From NCBI GenBank assembly GCA_020073495.1, contig JAIQFD010000001.1:434001-498000 (forward strand): DNA of 64,000 bases, given 5' to 3'. Each line of letters opens with the position of its first letter. Position 1 is the first letter of the stretch. Shown here piece by piece: positions 22,951 through 63,833 of this stretch. Made by a program: the position numbers and the translations under genes. The notes under the pieces are model-generated. The model was not told the origin of the DNA. It was given only the letters and a program-made list of their open reading frames with translations, and made no database searches. Source of the DNA: Terriglobia bacterium (GTDB lineage: Bacteria > Acidobacteriota > Terriglobia > Terriglobales > Acidobacteriaceae).

Positions 22951-25900
22951 ATGTTTCGGCGCCTGGTGTTGACCGCCGCCCTTGCAGTGATCCTCAACGC
23001 TGCGCAACCCGCGCTTGCCGGCCAGAGCAGTACAGCGCCAGCCCCAGGACAGGACCGCCGCGCCACTGCAGACCAGGCTTACGCGGAAGCGATGCGGTTG
23101 TACGCGCAGAAGACCCCGGAATCGATCCGCCAAGCCGTCGCGAAGGGTGAGGAAGCGCTCGCGCTGTACCGGGAGCTGGGAGACCGCGTTAAGGAAGCTG
23201 AATTGCATGTGGGCCTCGGTTCCACCTATCTCACCCTCGGAGACAAAGCGAGCGCAGCCGAACACCTGCGCCAGGCATTGGCCTTGGTCCGCAGCATCGG
23301 CAATCGTACCGATGAAGCCAGCGTCCTCCTGATGCTGGGCAGCGCCTACGAATCCTCACTGGAATCGAAGCCGGCGGTGGACACCTACCAGCAGGCGTTG
23401 GCGCTCTGTCGCACCTTGGCCAACATCCAGTGCGAAGCTTCGACGCTGATGGGGCTCGGCCGTGTCTCGGTCGCCGGCGGCGACAAGCAGAAGGCATCGG
23501 AGTACTTCGGGCAGGCGCTTCCCCTGTGGCGCGCACTCGGCGACCGCGCGAAACAAGCGTCCACCCTCTACCTGCTGGGGATCCTGAACGATCTGCTGAA
23601 TCAGAAGCAGGCTGCCATCGGTCACTATCTGCAGGCGCTGCCTTTGTACCGCGGTCTCGGCGATCAACCATGGGAGGCCCGCACGCTATTCAACCTGGCG
23701 GAAGCGTATGCGGCACTGGGGGACGACACGAAGGCCCGCGAATACTACGGACAGGCCATCCCCGCCCTTCACGCCGCCGGAGATCAGCCCAAGGAGGCCA
23801 CGGCCCTGGTCGGCCGGGGCATACTTTACGAAGCTGGGGGCGAGTATGCGCAATCACTCGCCGACCTGAAGGCCGCGCTGGCTGTGTTTCGCGCGCTCGG
23901 TGACCGCCTCATGGAGGCGACGGTGCTGCTTCGTCTTGGCATCGTCCATTTCGAGGCAGGAGAGCAGGAGAAGTCGTTGGACTTCGATCAGCAGGCGCTG
24001 GCGCTGGCTCGGACGTTGCACGAACCCGGGCTCGAAACTGCCGCGCTGGTCGGGATCAGCAGCGTCTATGGTGCTTTGGGTGACGACCGCCGGGCCTTGA
24101 GCTATTCCGACCAGGCGTTCAAGCTGATGCCGTCCGCCGACAGCGGGCAGGCGGATCCCGAGGCTCTCTATCGTCTCGGGGTCACTTACCAGTCTCTGGG
24201 GCGGAACGACAGGGCGCTCGAGTGTTTCACCCGTGAGGTTCCACTCCATCGCGCCAAAGGCGATCGCATGGGAGAGGCTCGCGCACTCTACGCACTGGCG
24301 GGAGTTTACGACGTGCAGGGACAGACCCAGCAGGCGCTCAGTCTCTACCAGCAAGTCCTGGAGATCCGGCAAGCGGTCGGCGACCGCCGCTCGAACGCAC
24401 AGGCGCTGAACGCCGTGGGCAATGCCTATGCTGGACTGCAGCAGCCCGAGACCGCCCTTGGCTACTATCGGCAGGCCCTGGAGCTTCGCCGTGCAGTGCA
24501 CGATCCTGTCGGAGAGTCGCAAACGCTGTTCTGGATGGCGAAGGCCGAACGAGACCTGGCCGAGCTGGCGCCGGCTCGCGATCACATCGAGGCTTCGCTG
24601 GCGATCGTCGAGTCGCAGCGGGCGCGGATTGCCAGCCGCGAACTGCGCACTTCGTACTTCGCGACCGCACAGCAAGCCTACGAGCTGTACATCGATCTGC
24701 TGATGCAGTTGCACCGGCAGCATCCAGAAAAGGGATATGACGCCCAGGCGCTGGAAGCGCATGAGCGGGCAAAAGCGCGGGGCCTGCTGGACCTTCTCAG
24801 CGAGGCTGGAGTCGACCTTCGCCAGGGAGTTGCGCCCGAGTTGCTGCAGCGCGGGCGTCAACTCAGTCAGCTCCTGGAGGAAAAGCAGAGCGCGGAGATC
24901 CGGCTGCTGAGCAGCGGCGACGCTGGCGAGCAGGCGCAGCAACTTCAGCAGGAGCTGGAAGCGCTCCGCACCGAGTACCAGCAGGTGGAAGCAAAGATCC
25001 GCGCGAACAGCCCTCGTTACGCTGCACTCACCCAGTCCCGGCCGGTGGATCTCGCGACCATCCAGAAAGAAGTGCTGGATGCCGACACGTTGCTCCTGGA
25101 GTATGCGCTGGGCAGCCAACGCAGCTACTTGTGGGCCGTGACGCCGTCGGGGTTGGCCAGCTTTGAGCTACCCGCGCGCGGCGAGATCGAAACCCTGTCG
25201 GTGCGTCTGTATCGAACCATCGTCGGCCGGCGCCCATCCGCTGCCGACGACCATCAGAGGATCGCCTCCTCGCTGAGCCGGATGGTCCTGGGGCCGGTGC
25301 AAAGCCAGCTTGGGACCAAGCGCCTCCTGATCGCGAGCGACGGCGCTTTGCAGGTTGTGCCGTTTGCAGCGCTGCCGCCGCCGGGCTGGGACCCCGGCGC
25401 GTCAGCACCGTATGAACCATTGATCGTCGCGCACGAGATCGTCAATGTTCCCTCTGCCTCGACTCTGGCTTTCCTGCGAAGAGGCGTGGGCGGCCGCCAT
25501 CCGGCCCCCAAGAAACTCGCGGTGCTGGCCGATCCAGTGTTCGAGCGCGAGGATGACCGCATCGCAGCGAACTCCTCGAGCGGGGAAACCGTGAGGCAAG
25601 CCGCACCGCTCCGTTCGCCGGAGGACCGTGTCCCCCCGGCCGCCGCCACGCGAGACGTGGCGACCGGGATTTCGCGAGGAATCGGCCTGGAACGGCTTCC
25701 CTTCACCCGCAAAGAGGCGGAGGCCATCCTCCGCCTGGCGCCACCGCAATCGCGGTTCGCTGCGCTCGATTTCGCTGCCAACAGATCGGCTGCGACCTCT
25801 CCTGAACTGGGGCAGTACCAGATCATTCACTTCGCGACGCACGGCGTCGTGAATGACGCGCATCCGGAGTTATCAGGTGTGGTTTTGTCGCTCTTCGACA

Positions 25901-26268
25901 AGAATGGCAACCCGGAGGACGGATTCCTCCGGCTGAACGATCTCTTCAATCTGAAGCTGAACGCCGGTCTGGTTGTGCTCAGTGCCTGCGAAACCGGCTT
26001 GGGCAAGGAAGTGCGAGGCGAAGGGTTGATCGGCCTGGCGCGAGGTTTCATGTACGCCGGAGCGCCACGCGTGGTGGTGAGCTTCTGGAGCATCAATGAC
26101 CAGGCTGCCGCGGAGGAGATGCGGCGTTTCTACGAGGGAATGCTGGGCAGCCGGCGCTTGCGGCCGGCGGCCGCCTTACGGCAGGCCCAGATCGAGATGT
26201 GGAAGCAGGAAACGTGGCGTGATCCATTCTTCTGGGCTGCGTTCGTTCTGCAAGGCGAGTGGAGGTAA
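22951..26268 (+). CDS. Secreted TPR-CHAT caspase-like protein (CHAT-1)
   Basis: 1105 residues. A signal peptide (MFRRLVLTAALAVILNAAQPALAG) is followed by a long array of ~40-residue TPRs (about 60-560) with recurrent LGDxxxA and ALALxRxLGD units. A coiled-coil-rich linker lies at 560-700. A C-terminal CHAT (HET-F-associated/caspase-HetF) domain spans about 700-1105. The peptidase dyad is intact: His964 in HFATHG and Cys1013 in LSACETG. It continues to the usual RGFMYAGAPRVVVSFWSIND and DPFFWAAFVLQGEW ending. GGAGG precedes ATG 22951. A signal peptide predicts action in the periplasm. A fragment of a DUF928-like gene lies 40 bp downstream on the opposite strand. Confidence 0.92.
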   Translation: MFRRLVLTAALAVILNAAQPALAGQSSTAPAPGQDRRATADQAYAEAMRLYAQKTPESIRQAVAKGEEALALYRELGDRVKEAELHVGLGSTYLTLGDKASAAEHLRQALALVRSIGNRTDEASVLLMLGSAYESSLESKPAVDTYQQALALCRTLANIQCEASTLMGLGRVSVAGGDKQKASEYFGQALPLWRALGDRAKQASTLYLLGILNDLLNQKQAAIGHYLQALPLYRGLGDQPWEARTLFNLAEAYAALGDDTKAREYYGQAIPALHAAGDQPKEATALVGRGILYEAGGEYAQSLADLKAALAVFRALGDRLMEATVLLRLGIVHFEAGEQEKSLDFDQQALALARTLHEPGLETAALVGISSVYGALGDDRRALSYSDQAFKLMPSADSGQADPEALYRLGVTYQSLGRNDRALECFTREVPLHRAKGDRMGEARALYALAGVYDVQGQTQQALSLYQQVLEIRQAVGDRRSNAQALNAVGNAYAGLQQPETALGYYRQALELRRAVHDPVGESQTLFWMAKAERDLAELAPARDHIEASLAIVESQRARIASRELRTSYFATAQQAYELYIDLLMQLHRQHPEKGYDAQALEAHERAKARGLLDLLSEAGVDLRQGVAPELLQRGRQLSQLLEEKQSAEIRLLSSGDAGEQAQQLQQELEALRTEYQQVEAKIRANSPRYAALTQSRPVDLATIQKEVLDADTLLLEYALGSQRSYLWAVTPSGLASFELPARGEIETLSVRLYRTIVGRRPSAADDHQRIASSLSRMVLGPVQSQLGTKRLLIASDGALQVVPFAALPPPGWDPGASAPYEPLIVAHEIVNVPSASTLAFLRRGVGGRHPAPKKLAVLADPVFEREDDRIAANSSSGETVRQAAPLRSPEDRVPPAAATRDVATGISRGIGLERLPFTRKEAEAILRLAPPQSRFAALDFAANRSAATSPELGQYQIIHFATHGVVNDAHPELSGVVLSLFDKNGNPEDGFLRLNDLFNLKLNAGLVVLSACETGLGKEVRGEGLIGLARGFMYAGAPRVVVSFWSINDQAAAEEMRRFYEGMLGSRRLRPAAALRQAQIEMWKQETWRDPFFWAAFVLQGEWR

Positions 26269-32530: not shown

Positions 32531-34432
32531 TCAGGCGCGGGCGCCAGTCTGCGCGCTTGCCACGCCGTACACTCTCATGTTCTGCATTGTATCTTCGAAG
32601 CCACGCACGGTGGTCTCCCCCAACAGCCGCGTAGGGAAGCAGTCCTGCACCAGCTCGTGCGTCTGCGGGCTAAGCACGATCTCGCTCTTAAATTCCTTGG
32701 TCAGGGACTCCAGGCGCGAGGCCAGGTTCACGGTCTCGCCGATCACCGAGTACTCCAGGCGGTCGCTGGAGCCGACGTTGCCGGCCGTCAACATCCCGGT
32801 GTGAATCCCCACGCCGATCTTGAGCGGTGGCCGGCGAGCGTCTGCCGCATGGAGCTGATTCATCCGTTCGACCTCCTGCACCATGCGCAAGGCCGTGCGG
32901 ACGGAGCGACAAGCGTCCTCTTTCTCTCCGTGGCTCACGGGCACGCCAAAGACCGCCATAAGACCGTCGCCGATGAATTTGTTGAGAAAGCCGCCCTCGT
33001 CCCGAACGATCGCAGCCATCGCGGTGAAGTAGTCGTTCAACCACTCCAGCACTTCTGCGGAAGGTTTGCCGGCTGTGATCTTGGTGAAGCTGCGGATATC
33101 GGAGAACAGCACGGTCGCGACCCGCTCCTGCCCGGCAAGGACGATTTCGCCCCGTCGCCGCCAGATCTCGTCCGCCACCTCGGGAGAGACGTAGCGTGAA
33201 AAGATTCCCATGAGCTGCGCCCGCTCTGCTTCGGCCTTCGACTTCAGCAGCCGTTCGGTGACAAATCGGTGACCCAGGCCCGCGGGGAGCACGAGCAGCA
33301 CGACGGCCTCGCCAGCGACAAAGCGAAGCCACGCATGCTCCCATGTCAGCAAAGCCTGGGCGAATCCGTACAGCGCCAGGTTGGCGGCAATCACCGCGAG
33401 CACGCCAAATCCCGGCCCCGATATGAGCACCAAGGTAGCCACAAGCCAGCCTAATAAGAAAATCATTCCCCACAACACCGGTCTGCTCATCACTCGGATC
33501 GCGCTGCCGTCGAGCAGCGTTCCCAGCGCCGCAGCATGGATCTCCGTGCCGGAAAACATCTTGCGGGTGCCGTCCGCCTGCGCGAAGCGGAAGACCGGTG
33601 TAAAGTGCCGATCCTTGCCGGCGGCACTGCTTTGGCCGATCAGAACGATCTTTCCCTTGAATGTCCCGGCATCACCTTTGCCTTGGAGGAACTCGAGGGC
33701 TGATACGCGGATGGCAGGCCGACTGCTCCAAGCGCCGATGCGGACCGTGTTCAATCCGCTCTCGTCCAGCGGGAGTGAGGTGGTACCTAGCCGGTAGGTG
33801 CCCGCGTCGCTGCGTTGCAGCGGCTGTCGCCGGAACAGGCTGGCCAGGGCCAGCGGAAAGGGCAGCGCCGCAACATTCCTCGGCGGCAACAGGAACGTCC
33901 GGCGGATGAAGCCGTCGTCGTCCACCGGCATGTTGACGAAGCCCCTGGCCATCGCGGCGCCGGACTTGCAGTACGGGATCGCCGCAGGATCAGGTTCGCA
34001 GTATTCGGGCAGCGGGTTCTCATCCGGAATCTGTTCTGAGCCGAACTGGCTGGCAACGATTACGTTCCCGGCTTCAGTAATGGCTTGGGCCAGATCGAGG
34101 TCGCCCTCTGGCGTGCGTTTATCGACGAGCAGGAGATCCAACCCGATGATTGCCGGACCACCAGCCGAGATACGTCGCACGACCTGCGCGACCGCCTTCC
34201 GCGGCACGGGAAAACTGCGCAATGCGCCGACGGCCGCATCGTCGAAATCAACGATCACGACCTCGGAGTGCGGCGGGGAATCCAGGGCGGGATGGACGAG
34301 AAGGTCGTAGCCCCAGCTCTCCAAGTCGCTCATCAGAGGCGAGCCAGCCACCGAAAACACCGATACACAAGCCAGTGCGCTGATCACGGCCCCGATCACG
34401 ATGTGCTTGAACAGCTCGGCCCCTTTTTGCAT
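32531..34432 (-). CDS. CHASE2-domain class III adenylate cyclase
   Basis: 633 residues. TM1 (residues 10-28), then an extracytoplasmic CHASE2 sensor to about 310 (VVIVDFDDAAVGALRSFPVP, GLDLLLVDKRTPEGD and ARGFVNMPVDDDGFIRR are typical), then three TMs to about 395, then a cyclase catalytic domain. Metal Asp residues are visible in VLFSDIRSFTKI (about 444) and NKFIGDGLMAVFG (about 488). The Lys of NKFIGDG favours ATP over GTP, and VNLASRLE supplies the transition-state Asn/Arg. Expected product is cAMP. It lies 63 bp upstream of, and co-directional with, the DUF928-like gene. The N-terminus starts at ATG 34432. Confidence 0.93.
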   Translation of the reverse strand: MQKGAELFKHIVIGAVISALACVSVFSVAGSPLMSDLESWGYDLLVHPALDSPPHSEVVIVDFDDAAVGALRSFPVPRKAVAQVVRRISAGGPAIIGLDLLLVDKRTPEGDLDLAQAITEAGNVIVASQFGSEQIPDENPLPEYCEPDPAAIPYCKSGAAMARGFVNMPVDDDGFIRRTFLLPPRNVAALPFPLALASLFRRQPLQRSDAGTYRLGTTSLPLDESGLNTVRIGAWSSRPAIRVSALEFLQGKGDAGTFKGKIVLIGQSSAAGKDRHFTPVFRFAQADGTRKMFSGTEIHAAALGTLLDGSAIRVMSRPVLWGMIFLLGWLVATLVLISGPGFGVLAVIAANLALYGFAQALLTWEHAWLRFVAGEAVVLLVLPAGLGHRFVTERLLKSKAEAERAQLMGIFSRYVSPEVADEIWRRRGEIVLAGQERVATVLFSDIRSFTKITAGKPSAEVLEWLNDYFTAMAAIVRDEGGFLNKFIGDGLMAVFGVPVSHGEKEDACRSVRTALRMVQEVERMNQLHAADARRPPLKIGVGIHTGMLTAGNVGSSDRLEYSVIGETVNLASRLESLTKEFKSEIVLSPQTHELVQDCFPTRLLGETTVRGFEDTMQNMRVYGVASAQTGARA

Positions 34433-57815: not shown

Positions 57816-58033
57816 ATCCAGGCCTCGTGTCCCGCGGGTGCCAGGCGGCAGTAACTTGCTGCTGCGCTTCGCGGGAATCAATCCGCTCTTTTCCCGCCCA
57901 GTTGCGTTGTGCAAACCGGGACCGGTTCGGCTGCTGGCGGTTCCCGGCGTTAGCAGACTCGGGGGCCTGCGCGCCGACTCGTCCGGCGGCCCGAACCGGG
58001 CCCGGACGTCGCGTGACGACGGACACATATTCG

Positions 58034-58049
58034 TGTGATTTATGTCACA
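58034..58049. promoter_or_regulatory. CRP/cAMP-receptor-type binding site
   Basis: TGTGA-TTTATG-TCACA is a perfect match to the CRP core consensus, centred about 95 bp upstream of the expected transcription start of the fad operon. That position is close to those used by class I activators. Confidence 0.6.
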
Positions 58050-58100
58050 TGCACAATTCCTGCAACACTCTGCAAGCAAAAGATTTATTTCATTTTCCAC

Positions 58101-58130
58101 TTGACTGAATGAATCGCCATTCAGTATCCT
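58101..58130 (+). promoter_or_regulatory. fad-operon promoter
   Basis: TTGACT (-35, 58101-58106), 18-bp spacer, TATCCT (-10, 58125-58130). The spacer is almost entirely the operator-like inverted repeat. Expected start about 58137. Confidence 0.6.
58104..58125. promoter_or_regulatory. FadR-like (TetR-family) operator
   Basis: ACTGAATG-AATCGC-CATTCAGT: 8-bp perfect arms with a 6-bp centre, lying between -35 and -10. It resembles the TGAATGA-N4-TCATTCA sites I recall for Bacillus FadR, a TetR-family repressor released by acyl-CoA. No TetR gene is in the window. Confidence 0.6.
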
Positions 58131-58146
58131 TTTTTCAACTTAATAC

Positions 58147-58197
58147 GGGCGCGCGTCGTTGCCATCCTCACCCCCACATCCACTTCGACGCGCGCCC
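58147..58197 (+). promoter_or_regulatory. Strong leader hairpin of the fad operon
   Basis: Arms GGGCGCGCGTCG (58147-58158) and CGACGCGCGCCC (58186-58197): 12 perfect pairs around a 27-nt C-rich loop, followed by TTCTCGTTTG. It could be an attenuator or RNA stabiliser, ~150 nt before the start codon. Confidence 0.65.
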
Positions 58198-58353
58198 TTC
58201 TCGTTTGCGGCGTTTTGCGTCTCGTAGTGGTACTACCGGCCCCGCAGTCGGGCAGTTAGGTCATTTGTACGAACACAGGCATGATCCTCGGCAAACCCCC
58301 TCGGCAGAAGAAATCCCTCAACCCTCGTGTCTGCTCCCGGAATCGAATCTCCT

Positions 58354-60765
58354 ATGCTGAAACGCATTCATAAAGCGGCCGTCCTCGGCGCCGGCACCAT
58401 GGGCGCGCGCATCGCCGCCCACCTGGCCAACGCCGGCGTTCCCTGCACTCTGCTCGACATCGTTCCCCCGGATGCCGACGGCCCGGCGCGCAACAAGATC
58501 GTGCGTGCCGGCCTGGATGCCGCCATCAAGTCCAAGCCCGCGGCCTTCTTCGAGCCCGCGCTGGCCAAGCTGATCACCATCGGCAACTTCGACGACGATA
58601 TGAAGAAGCTCGCCGACGCCGACTGGATCATCGAGGCGGTGGCCGAGAACCTCGACATCAAGCGCGCGTTGCTGAAAAAAGTGGAGGCGGTGCGCAAGCC
58701 CGGCACCATCACCACCACCAACACCAGCGGCCTGCCGGTGTCGAAGATCGCCGAGGGTTTCTCCGACGACCTCCGCCGCCACTGGTTCGGCACGCACTTC
58801 TTCAATCCGCCGCGCTATATGCGGCTGCTGGAGATCATCCCCACGCCCGAGGCCGACCGTGCCGCCATCGAAGCCATCGCGCACTTCTGCGACCTCCGCC
58901 TGGGCAAAGGGATCGTGGTCGCCAAGGACACGCCCAACTTCATCGCCAACCGCATCGGCACCTTCTCCGTGCTCAACGTCATTCGTGTGATGCAGGAGAT
59001 GGATTTCTCCATCGAGGATGTGGACGCGCTCACGGGCAGCGTCGTGGGCTGGCCGAAATCCGCGACCTTCCGCACCATCGACCTTGTGGGCCTCGACATC
59101 CTGGGAAGCGTCGTCGGCAACATGACGAAGAACGTGCGCGACGAGCGCAGCGAACTCAAGCTCCCCGATTTTTTCCAGCACATGCTGGAGCGCAAGTGGC
59201 TGGGCGACAAGACCCGCCAGGGCTTCTACAAGAAGCAAAAGAGCGCCTCCGGCGAGGAACGCCTCGGACTCGATTGGAAGACGCTGGAGTATCGACCGCG
59301 GCAGAAGGCCAGGTTCCCTGCCCTCGACATGGCCAAAAACGTCGAGGACACCGCCGAGCGTCTCCGCATGCTGCTGGGCGGCGATCCGAAGAAGGACAAG
59401 GCCGCCGCGTTCTATTGGCGCACTCTTTCGGACCTGTGGACCTATGCGGCGAACCGCATCCCGGAGATCAGCGACCGCGTGGTCGAGATCGACCGCGCCA
59501 TGAAGATGGGTTTCAACTGGGAAATGGGCCCGTTCGAGCTGTGGGACGCCGCCGGCGTCGCCGCCACGGTCGAGCGCATGAAGAAGGAAGGCCACCCGGT
59601 CGCGGCCAACGTCGAGAAGTTGCTCGCCTCCGGCGCAACCTCCTGGTACAAGGACGAGCCCTCGACGCGTTCCGGCCGCGCCTATTTCGACCTCGCCAGC
59701 GTTTCGTTCAAGCCGGTAGAAGTGCCCGAGGGCGTCAGCACCGTAACGGTGGTCAAGAAATCGAATGGCGTGGTGAAGAAGAACGCGGGCGCTTCCCTGG
59801 TGGACGTCGGCGACGGCGTCGGCTGCCTCGAGTTCCACTCCAAAATGAACGCGCTCGGCGGCGACATCATCCAGATGGTCACCCAGGCACTCAAGCCCGG
59901 CTCCGAGCTGAATGCGAACTTCGACGCTTTTGTCATCACCAACGACGGGCAGCACTTTTCCGTCGGCGCGAACATCATGCTCTTGCTGATGGCGGTGCAG
60001 GAAGAAGAATGGGACGACATCGACCTGATGGTCCGCTCCTTCCAGGGGATGACCCAGGCCATCAAGTTCTCGCCCAAGCCGGTGGTGGTGGCGCCTTTCG
60101 GGATGGCGCTGGGCGGCGGCTGCGAGATCTCGCTGCACGCGCCCGTGCGTATGCCGCACGCCGAGCTTTACATGGGCCTGGTCGAGGTTGGCGTCGGCCT
60201 GCTGCCCGGCGGCGGCGGCTGCAAGGAGATGACCCTGCGCGCGGTGAACAGCGCGCAGTCAATCCGCCCCGACGCGCGCGGTGAGTCGGTCGAGATGATG
60301 GAGGCCATGAAGCGCGCCTTCGAGACCATCGCCATGGCAAAGGTCTCGACCTCGGCCAATGAGGCCCGCAACCTCGGCTTCCTCTCGAACGGCGACGAGA
60401 TCGTGATGAACCGCGACCGCGTGCTCTCCGACGCCAAGGCCCGCGCGCTGGAGATGGCCCGCGCCGGATACAAGCCGCCGGTCATGCGGACCGACATTCC
60501 CGCTCCCGGCGAGAGCATTCTGGCGACGCTCAAGCTCGGCGTACATCTAATGCGGCAGGGCGAGTTCATCACCGAGTACGAAGTGAAGATCGGCAGCAAG
60601 GTGGCCGAGGTGCTCTGCGGCGGCGCTGTGACCCCCGGCACCCCGGTGAGCGAGCAGTACCTGCTGGACCTGGAGCGCGAGACGTTCAAATCGCTGTGCG
60701 GCGAGCGCAACACGCAACAGCGCATCCAGCACACGCTGAAGACCGGCAAGCCGCTGAGAAATTGA
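58354..60765 (+). CDS. 3-hydroxyacyl-CoA dehydrogenase/enoyl-CoA hydratase (FadN-type)
   Basis: 803 residues: beta-oxidation multienzyme in the FadN layout, dehydrogenase first. NAD fold AAVLGAGTMGARIAAHLANA, NTSGLPVSKIAEG, the HCDH signature KDTPNFIANRIGTFSVLNVI; later the hydratase part with DGQHFSVGANIMLLLMA and FGMALGGGCEISLHAPVRMP. In E. coli FadB the order is reversed. ATG 58354 fits the family start; GTG 58327 adds nine residues. First gene of the operon with thiolase and acyl-CoA dehydrogenase. Confidence 0.95.
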   Translation: MLKRIHKAAVLGAGTMGARIAAHLANAGVPCTLLDIVPPDADGPARNKIVRAGLDAAIKSKPAAFFEPALAKLITIGNFDDDMKKLADADWIIEAVAENLDIKRALLKKVEAVRKPGTITTTNTSGLPVSKIAEGFSDDLRRHWFGTHFFNPPRYMRLLEIIPTPEADRAAIEAIAHFCDLRLGKGIVVAKDTPNFIANRIGTFSVLNVIRVMQEMDFSIEDVDALTGSVVGWPKSATFRTIDLVGLDILGSVVGNMTKNVRDERSELKLPDFFQHMLERKWLGDKTRQGFYKKQKSASGEERLGLDWKTLEYRPRQKARFPALDMAKNVEDTAERLRMLLGGDPKKDKAAAFYWRTLSDLWTYAANRIPEISDRVVEIDRAMKMGFNWEMGPFELWDAAGVAATVERMKKEGHPVAANVEKLLASGATSWYKDEPSTRSGRAYFDLASVSFKPVEVPEGVSTVTVVKKSNGVVKKNAGASLVDVGDGVGCLEFHSKMNALGGDIIQMVTQALKPGSELNANFDAFVITNDGQHFSVGANIMLLLMAVQEEEWDDIDLMVRSFQGMTQAIKFSPKPVVVAPFGMALGGGCEISLHAPVRMPHAELYMGLVEVGVGLLPGGGGCKEMTLRAVNSAQSIRPDARGESVEMMEAMKRAFETIAMAKVSTSANEARNLGFLSNGDEIVMNRDRVLSDAKARALEMARAGYKPPVMRTDIPAPGESILATLKLGVHLMRQGEFITEYEVKIGSKVAEVLCGGAVTPGTPVSEQYLLDLERETFKSLCGERNTQQRIQHTLKTGKPLRN

Positions 60766-60840: not shown

Positions 60841-62019
60841 ATGCGAGAAGTAGTGATTGCAAGTTCGGTGAGGACTCCGATCGGCAAGGCCTACAAAGGC
60901 ACACTTCGCGCCACGCGCCCCGACGACCTGGCCGCGGTGGCCATCAAGGGCGCGCTCGGACGCGTCCCGCAGCTCGACCCCCGCGAGATCGAAGACGTCA
61001 TCCTCGGCTGCGCCATGCCCGAGGCCGAACAGGGCATGAACGTCGCCCGCATCGCGTCCTTGCGCGCCGGCCTGCCGGTCGAGGTCTCGGCCATGACCGT
61101 CAACCGCTTCTGCTCCTCCGGCCTGCAGGCGATCGCCATGGCCGCGGAGCGCATCATGGCGGGCGGCGCTGAGGTAATCGTCGCCGGCGGCGTCGAGTCC
61201 ATGACTATGATCCCCATGGGCGGCCACAAGGTCTCGTGCAATCCCTGGCTGGTCGAGAACTATCCCGACTCGTACCTCTCCATGGGCCTGACCACCGAGC
61301 GGCTGGCCAAGCGCTTCGGCATCACCCGCGAGCAGGCGGACGAGTTCAGCTACCACAGCCACCAGAAGGCGCTCGCTGCCATCGCGGCCGGCAAGTTCGA
61401 CGAGGAGACCGTGCCCGTTCCGGTCAGCTTCACCACGCCAAACGGCTCCAAGCCCAAGCGCCACGACATTATTTTCAAGATTGACGAAGGCCCACGCGCC
61501 GACACCACGCTCGAGGCGCTCGCACACTTGAAGCCTGCGTTCCACGTCAAGGGCATGGTGACCGCCGGCAACTCGTCACAGATGTCCGACGGAGCCGCCG
61601 CCGCTGTGGTCATGTCCGCCGAAAAGGCGAAAGCGCTCGGCATCAAGCCGCTGGCGCGCTACGTCGCCTTCGCCACCGCCGGTTACAAGCCGGAGGAAAT
61701 GGGCATCGGCCCCGTGTTCGCCATCCCCAAGGCTCTGAAGATGGCCGGCCTGAAGCTCTCCGACATCGACGTCATCGAGCTCAACGAAGCCTTCGCCGCG
61801 CAGTCGCTCGCTGTCATCAAGGAAGCAGAGCTGCCGATGGATAAGCTCAACCCCAACGGCGGGGCTGTCGCGCTCGGTCATCCGCTGGGCTGCACCGGCG
61901 CGAAGCTGACCGCCACCATCATCCGCGAACTCAAGCGCCGCAACGGACGGTACGGCATCGTGACCATGTGCGTCGGCGGCGGCATGGGCGCGGCAGGAAT
62001 CTTCGAGAACATTCAGTGA
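60841..62019 (+). CDS. fadA: Acetyl-CoA acyltransferase (thiolase)
   Basis: 392 residues. Catalytic Cys in [20 protein letters not shown] (about residue 91), the substrate-site [12 protein letters not shown], His in [20 protein letters not shown], and second Cys in [11 protein letters not shown] near the end. It releases acetyl-CoA from 3-ketoacyl-CoA. AAAAGGA precedes ATG 60841. It lies between the FadN-type and acyl-CoA dehydrogenase genes. Confidence 0.96.

Positions 62020-62037: not shown

Positions 62038-63833
<1,796 letters not shown>

Follow-up and report, generated by a model that had tools for sequence, protein, structure and literature searches.

A FadR-type operator and a candidate RNA family at the promoter of a beta-oxidation operon in a Terriglobia bacterium

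How is fatty-acid degradation controlled in the Acidobacteriota, bacteria that are abundant in soil and in which gene control has, to our knowledge, been little studied? This question is raised by a stretch of 64,000 nucleotides (the window) from a Terriglobia bacterium with a genome of 3.70 Mb in 8 contigs (G000), in which a composite control region precedes three beta-oxidation genes:

58354–60762, + strand: fadB-like 3-hydroxyacyl-CoA dehydrogenase / enoyl-CoA hydratase, first gene of the operon
60841–62016, + strand: thiolase (fadA-like), second gene of the operon
62038–63831, + strand: acyl-CoA dehydrogenase, third gene of the operon

Relatives of this fadB with 66–82% identity are found in records named Korobacter, Angelobacter, Sulfotelmatobacter and other Terriglobia or Acidobacteria. 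The answer proposed here, which as a whole we consider rather probable, is a sigma-70-type promoter repressed by FadR and subject in this genus to CRP-type modulation, from which both a hairpin-forming short RNA and, by read-through, the fad message would be produced. Elsewhere in the window, a large TPR-CHAT protein is encoded at 22951–26265 (+ strand).

The core of the control region consists of a promoter with a palindrome embedded in it:

58078–58087, + strand: possible UP element AAAAGATTTA, directly 5' of the -35 hexamer and recurring in several relatives (by eye)
58101–58106, + strand: -35 hexamer TTGACT (promoter scan)
58104–58125, + strand: FadR-type operator ACTGAATGAATCGCCATTCAGT (core 58106–58123), a palindrome conserved at fadB promoters
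58125–58130, + strand: -10 hexamer TATCCT (promoter scan), separated from TTGACT by an 18-bp spacer

TTGACT/TATCCT is the sole promoter-like match in 57950–58360 (0.2 in shuffles), and its position makes a transcription start near 58137 likely. A preliminary description of this DNA had noticed an inverted repeat with 8-bp arms, resembling FadR sites, that fills the -35/-10 spacer. The palindrome ACTGAATG-aatcgc-CATTCAGT (58104–58125) is indeed exact and occupies the spacer between TTGACT and TATCCT. Within the window, TGAATGANTNNTCATTCA is found with up to three mismatches at one place (two matches when both strands are counted, a number reached by 18 of 100 shuffles), and given these modest statistics the weight of the palindrome lies in its conservation and not in the window alone. 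In a set of 100 family genomes the exact form TGAATGA-N4-TCATTCA has 23 sites, spread over 20 genomes, versus 2 sites for the reversed control; 21 of the 23 lie upstream of fadB, and every one of the 20 genomes contributes to these 21. From 84 loci in which the start of fadB has at least 56% identity (orientation by tblastn), 68 distinct upstream stretches were obtained, 31 of which carry TGAATGANNNNTCATTCA at up to two mismatches (28 exactly) and 30 of these immediately after TTGAC, while at this threshold the operator is absent from the other 37. The operator of the window is one base off the exact form; no other site in its genome comes within one mismatch and four more have two, which disfavours a FadR controlling many genes here. 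Exact operators away from fadB lie at 2602–2619 of L182 (G075:C21), before a gene judged by eye to encode a large secreted protein with a carboxypeptidase-regulatory-like start, and in L183, just before a minus-strand gene judged by eye to be gluconolactonase-like. In another genome (G002) fadB is present twice (contigs C10 and C11), with an exact operator at each copy.

The genome contains six TetR matches, and one of them is the candidate regulator for this operator:

G000:C3:342003–342635, - strand, outside the window: L023, TetR-family FadR orthologue

L023 has the Pfam domains TetR_N and TetR_C_4, both above cut-off, and its best PDB match over the whole regulator length is 1vi0 (E 9.4e-39), followed by 3whb (entitled 'Fatty acid metabolism regulator protein'), 5gpa and 5gp9, all of which we take to be FadR proteins of Bacillus (B. 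subtilis or B. halodurans; 3whb presumably the B. subtilis protein). The recognition stretch VADGTIYLYF of L023 is identical to that of the PDB proteins in three alignments. The NCBIfam FadR model (NF053878) is its best family with 176.4 bits, a score under the equivalog cut-off of 200, versus at most 61 bits for the other five TetR proteins of the genome. An orthologue at E 1e-25 or better occurs in 28 of the 100 family genomes, and its distribution follows that of the operator: 18 of the 20 operator genomes have it, compared with 10 of the other 80 (Fisher p 6e-11, uncorrected for kinship). Two genomes (G063 and G099) carry the operator before fadB, yet have no FadR match at E 1e-25, and among the ten FadR genomes without an exact operator G000 and its congener G001 have one with one mismatch and G020 one with two. 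Repression of the fad operon by FadR, proposed earlier from the palindrome, is thus well supported at the sequence level by operator conservation and by co-occurrence with the orthologue.

This control resembles that of Bacillus in its orthologous regulator with an identical recognition stretch, in its beta-oxidation target and in its palindrome of the TGAATGA...TCATTCA type, which we assume to be the Bacillus FadR consensus; our literature search found no paper giving that consensus. It differs from the Bacillus system in that there is usually one exact site per genome where the site is present, that this site lies within the promoter spacer and is often followed by a conserved RNA, and that L023 misses the NCBIfam equivalog cut-off. 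The kinship with PDB 3ang, presumably the FadR of Thermus thermophilus, is more distant (E 8e-6 only). This TetR-type fatty-acid regulator from outside the Firmicutes recognizes a different site with the consensus TTRNACYNRGTNYAA (PMC5597230). The FadR part of the locus is a new example of an already known kind of control, and it is the RNA described below that constitutes the new candidate.

An additional layer of regulation may reside further upstream, where two CRP-type boxes are found:

58012–58027, + strand: weaker CRP-type box CGTGACGACGGACACA, two mismatches, 22 bp upstream of the next
58034–58049, + strand: perfect CRP-type box TGTGATTTATGTCACA; the congener G001 has CGTGATTTTCGTCACA at the same place

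The perfect TGTGA-N6-TCACA about 95 bp before the start had been reported before and is the sole exact match in the window (distance counted by hand from the box centre to the likely start near 58137); the weaker box had been overlooked, and G001 has a one-mismatch box in its place. Near-matches by themselves are uninformative, since the window holds 20 with up to two mismatches versus 17.6 expected (30 of 100 shuffles reach 20). Across the genome the exact pattern occurs at 29 sites and the reversed pattern at 1; a simple gene-calling rule places 5 of the 29 within called genes. Genes beside the boxes outside called genes include those for citrate synthase, an isocitrate/isopropylmalate-type dehydrogenase, a succinate dehydrogenase membrane subunit, acyl-CoA dehydrogenase, an acyl-CoA carboxylase carboxyltransferase, uroporphyrinogen decarboxylase, a PLP-dependent enzyme, SAICAR synthetase and the glycyl-tRNA synthetase beta subunit (of 36 box-adjoining proteins listed, counting duplicates, 20 were scanned, and no family was assigned to 5 of these). 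With 29 sites versus 1 and with central-carbon and lipid neighbours, TGTGA-N6-TCACA looks like a regulon motif in which lipid genes are some among many others.

Are the boxes at the fad promoter part of this regulon or products of chance? A lack of function seems unlikely to us: before fadB a pair of boxes 22 bp apart stands at matching positions in the window genome and the congener, with different letters in the spacers, and the motif recurs before other copies of the RNA element much more often than chance predicts (see below). Nevertheless, chance would account for the narrow distribution, given that a box with at most one mismatch accompanies only 3 of 31 operator promoters (the window genome, the congener and G031) and none of the remaining 28, and also for the position, about -95 from the start being an unusual distance for a CRP-type box. 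An operator-less fadB leader (L093, G004) has an exact box. Of the CRP-like activation originally suggested, the motif stands as a genuine genome motif, while at fadB boxes with at most one mismatch were seen in the genus, G031 and G004 only; conservation at orthologous promoters likewise reaches the congener and is missing from most of the operator promoters. In L181 (G000:C1:187874–190018), two CRP/FNR-type genes, one of them a 165-codon ORF, lie near two exact CRP boxes.

Which protein might read these boxes? The genome has 17 cNMP-binding matches, and the CRP-like regulators sought among them are present: seven proteins have a CRP-like recognition helix, S-R-E-T-V in L034, L036, L037 and L039 and less exact in L038, L042 and L029 (L029 being the loosest), S-R-E-T-V-x-R being what we take to be the CRP-type pattern. 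The motif GE...R-S/T-A is presumably the cAMP phosphate-binding cassette, with the arginine holding the phosphate, and this arginine is replaced in all seven; in an alignment of L039 to PDB 3d0s the cAMP phosphate-binding residues are replaced. Among the proteins that keep R-S/T-A, L035 has a different helix, and L027, L028, L030 and L031 have no domain of this kind. Because the CRP-like candidates miss the phosphate-binding arginine, the involvement of cAMP is unsupported, although sequence cannot rule it out. N-terminal cysteines (CxxC...C) in L036, L038 and L039 make a redox or metal input possible. The system thus resembles the E. coli CRP and M. tuberculosis Crp regulons in its TGTGA-N6-TCACA motif, S-R-E-T-V-x-R helix and central-carbon targets, but not in the residues that bind the cAMP phosphate.

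A more specific proposal was that activation occurs with cAMP and that the nucleotide is delivered by a cyclase encoded in the same window as the fad operon:

32534–34432, - strand: CHASE2 + class III cyclase gene

That cAMP from this cyclase activates the fad operon via a CRP homologue is in our judgement very improbable. The presence of the cyclase gene, of several CRP/FNR-type proteins and of an exact box belonging to a motif enriched in the genome agrees with such a link, but six of the proteins with the CRP helix, and L029 as well, are without the R-S/T pair, and the box is absent from 28 of 31 operator promoters. Neither the cAMP part nor the cAMP-to-fatty-acid link is supported, the basis of the latter being the location of both genes within one window, which is no evidence of a connection.

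The leader of the operon contains the third component of the region:

58132–58210, + strand: RNA element with unpaired AACTTAATA, GC-rich covarying stem, loop with GCCATCCTCACCCCCACAT and T-rich stretch

The hairpin with a 12-bp stem that had been seen in the leader is confirmed, 58147–58158 pairing with 58186–58197. The 79-nt RNA folds with -27.0 kcal/mol (z -3.3), which none of 200 shuffles matches, whereas the complete leader of 231 nt does not stand out (z -1.0; matched by 27 of 200). Leaders following the operator have the same order of parts, i.e., AACTTAATA, a GC-rich stem and the loop GCCATCCTCACCCC(C)ACAT, the loop being nearly invariant across many genera. In an alignment of 26 of 29 elements (L054 and L074, near-identical, and L122, degenerate, were omitted), 99.3% of 285 cells over 11 pairs are paired, six pairs have changed on both sides, and 23 cells are double-changed versus 4.3 in shuffles (0 of 500 reach 23); controls with slid partners give 22–61% paired. 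Since G-U occurs in 14 cells and A-C in 1, the element is apparently a sense RNA of the + strand, and a DNA palindrome or a minus-strand RNA is disfavoured. A small coding ORF is unlikely as well, the differences in loop length not being divisible by three and the stem changes being compensatory. Downstream of the stem, 6.6 of 14 positions are T versus 3.4 expected (43 of 44 elements). The loop of more than 20 nt and the interrupted U tract are both unusual for a terminator (our terminator scan, which allows loops of 3–8 only, cannot judge such a loop), and from the enriched but interrupted T-rich tail termination is predicted as likely.

C-rich-loop bacterial sRNAs and sRNAs derived from 5' UTRs are a known class, which the element resembles in being a short hairpin with an unpaired, conserved C-rich loop and a terminator-like tail and in lying partly within an mRNA 5' UTR. 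It differs from C-rich-loop sRNAs in having no Rfam kinship, scans at gathering and permissive thresholds giving no family and a single chance match, and in its distribution: a 199-genome sample of the phylum gave three genomes of this family and one weak match outside it (E 7e-5). Literature searches, which largely did not extend to subscription journals, found nothing describing the element, whether by its loop sequence, which led to one unrelated paper, or by FadR with Acidobacteria, structured RNAs or C-rich sRNAs. Structured RNAs of Acidobacteria named Acido-1 and Acido-Lenti-1 (RF01686 and RF01687) are described in PMC2864571, and neither matches the RNA region of the window in the Rfam scans. 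The element is, from its sequence, a candidate new RNA family present in many genera.

How the element functions depends on where else it occurs. The hairpin with its loop is found in 23 of the 31 operator promoters (the L135 copy being a variant) and in several operator-less fadB leaders, and it is missing from the other eight operator promoters (L044, L056, L066, L072, L113, L118, L122, L126). With the operator absent at 37 of 68 fadB promoters and the hairpin at 8 of 31, the two are not obligatory partners. A model of the element (R1) matched, at E 0.01, 39 of 100 genomes of the family and, at E 1e-6, gave 72 matches in 60 of 398 family genomes and none in the other 338, these genome searches using stricter filters that lose weak matches. 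In 51 of the 72 copies fadB lies downstream on the same strand at 90–1450 nt (within 350 nt in 40), and one copy lies 118 nt before an acyl-CoA dehydrogenase gene. The remaining 20 precede neither gene, three of them with less than 800 nt of contig left. In all seven genomes of genus g29 that have a match, the element is followed by a called gene of opposite orientation, and the 1–5 kb seen contain no fadB. In L217 the next called gene is also opposite, the copy being situated between genes judged by eye to be uroporphyrinogen-synthase-like and, convergent to it, peptidase-like; in L224 the next called + strand gene is more than 2 kb away; and L219, L220 and L234 are 120–270 nt before other + strand genes. 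The hairpin had been regarded as an accessory of the fad leader, and it does lie there; beyond this, it is a conserved RNA element of which some copies have no fad gene nearby.

Could the hairpin simply protect the fad message at its 5' end or set its translation, with no regulatory role? Its position at the likely 5' end would suit such a task, as would a stem sequence free to change while pairing is maintained, but it is not only the stem that is kept: the loop hardly varies among many genera, and some copies stand without a fad gene, which makes this quite improbable. A cis-acting attenuator, or leader switch, in which a protein or small molecule on the C-rich loop decides between termination and read-through while other copies lead other genes, agrees with the predominance of copies upstream of fadB, the copy before the acyl-CoA dehydrogenase gene, the distances of L219, L220 and L234 from their next genes and the T-rich stretch after the stem. 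It does not agree with the opposite-strand genes in g29 and L217, with the wide variation in the distance to fadB or with the leaders, in which inspection by eye revealed no further conserved part. As a general explanation we rate it as somewhat unlikely, and for the fadB copies it is a live one. The fad-less copies argue that cis control is not the only use of the element.

The upstream sequences of the copies are informative in this respect. Of 81 matches, 44 elements were kept after dropping 34 weak opposite-strand or chance matches and the duplicates L216, L227 and L236. A CRP-type box with at most one mismatch lies within 160 bp upstream of 9 of the 44, versus a mean of 0.16 and a maximum of 2 in 300 shuffles; an exact box precedes four, versus 0.0 in shuffles; and leaving out the genus of the window, a box precedes 7 of 42. 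In L217, L219 and L224 the box centre is near -41 of the start predicted from the -10 (hand count), which is a usual position for CRP-type activators. In the four matching genomes of genus g72, an exact box stands at one position before the second copy, with three different spacers. As 18 of the 44 elements have neither operator nor CRP box, other control must also exist.

Taken with this evidence, the likeliest reading of the sequences is a small-RNA gene with a promoter under FadR, CRP-type or other control, which in many genomes also forms the 5' end of the fad operon. In our model, the sigma-70-type promoter at about 58101–58137 would be repressed by L023, bound as a dimer over the palindrome between -35 and -10, and would be freed when long-chain acyl-CoA releases FadR, as expected by analogy with the Bacillus homologue. 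In this genus, the two upstream boxes would let a CRP/FNR-family protein, whose ligand is probably not bound in the usual cAMP way, modulate the promoter. The transcript would start with the hairpin (AACUUAAUA, GC stem, loop GCCAUCCUCACCCC(C)ACAU and U-rich tail), where part of the transcripts most likely end to give a short RNA of about 75 nt, and read-through would yield the fadB-thiolase-acyl-CoA dehydrogenase mRNA. The operator and its conservation, the regulator orthologue, motif enrichment, RNA covariation and the fad-less copies are established by computation, while repression and its inducer, the strand and start of transcription, termination, and the use of the C-rich loop by the short RNA to act on a protein or on other RNAs are inferred. 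The broader proposal that the hairpin founds a new family of trans-acting sRNAs in this family of Acidobacteriota, made on FadR release at fad and on CRP/FNR-type firing elsewhere and acting by its near-invariant loop on mRNAs or a protein, is tentative, and we hold it to be possible with the balance tilted slightly against it. If true, a fatty-acid repressor and a global regulator would share one RNA output.

Three things are gained for the Acidobacteriota: a specific pairing of repressor and operator for the use of fatty acids, a CRP-type motif spread over the genome whose candidate regulators lack a cAMP pocket of the usual form, and a candidate RNA family. As the family exists both fused to an operon and separately, it permits a direct test of whether mRNA leaders and sRNAs have an origin in common. 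In 21 genomes, the loop complement GGGGTGAGGATGGC with up to one mismatch gives 118 matches versus 22 for the reversed sequence; about 25 are the element itself, and even without these copies the complement is about four times as frequent as the reversed control. The excess may stem from coding or ribosome-binding sequence, and no antisense target was established, three inspected matches lying at a start site in G031 (one) and apparently inside called genes of the window genome (two). One copy (L222, G084:C204) lies near a gene with a CHASE2-like start by eye, and a CHASE2 cyclase is encoded in the window too, which may be a coincidence. Another, separate copy (L225, G029) has upstream of 2524 a palindrome, TTGG-tcttg-CCAA, between -35 and -10, seen by eye, at which a different regulator may act.
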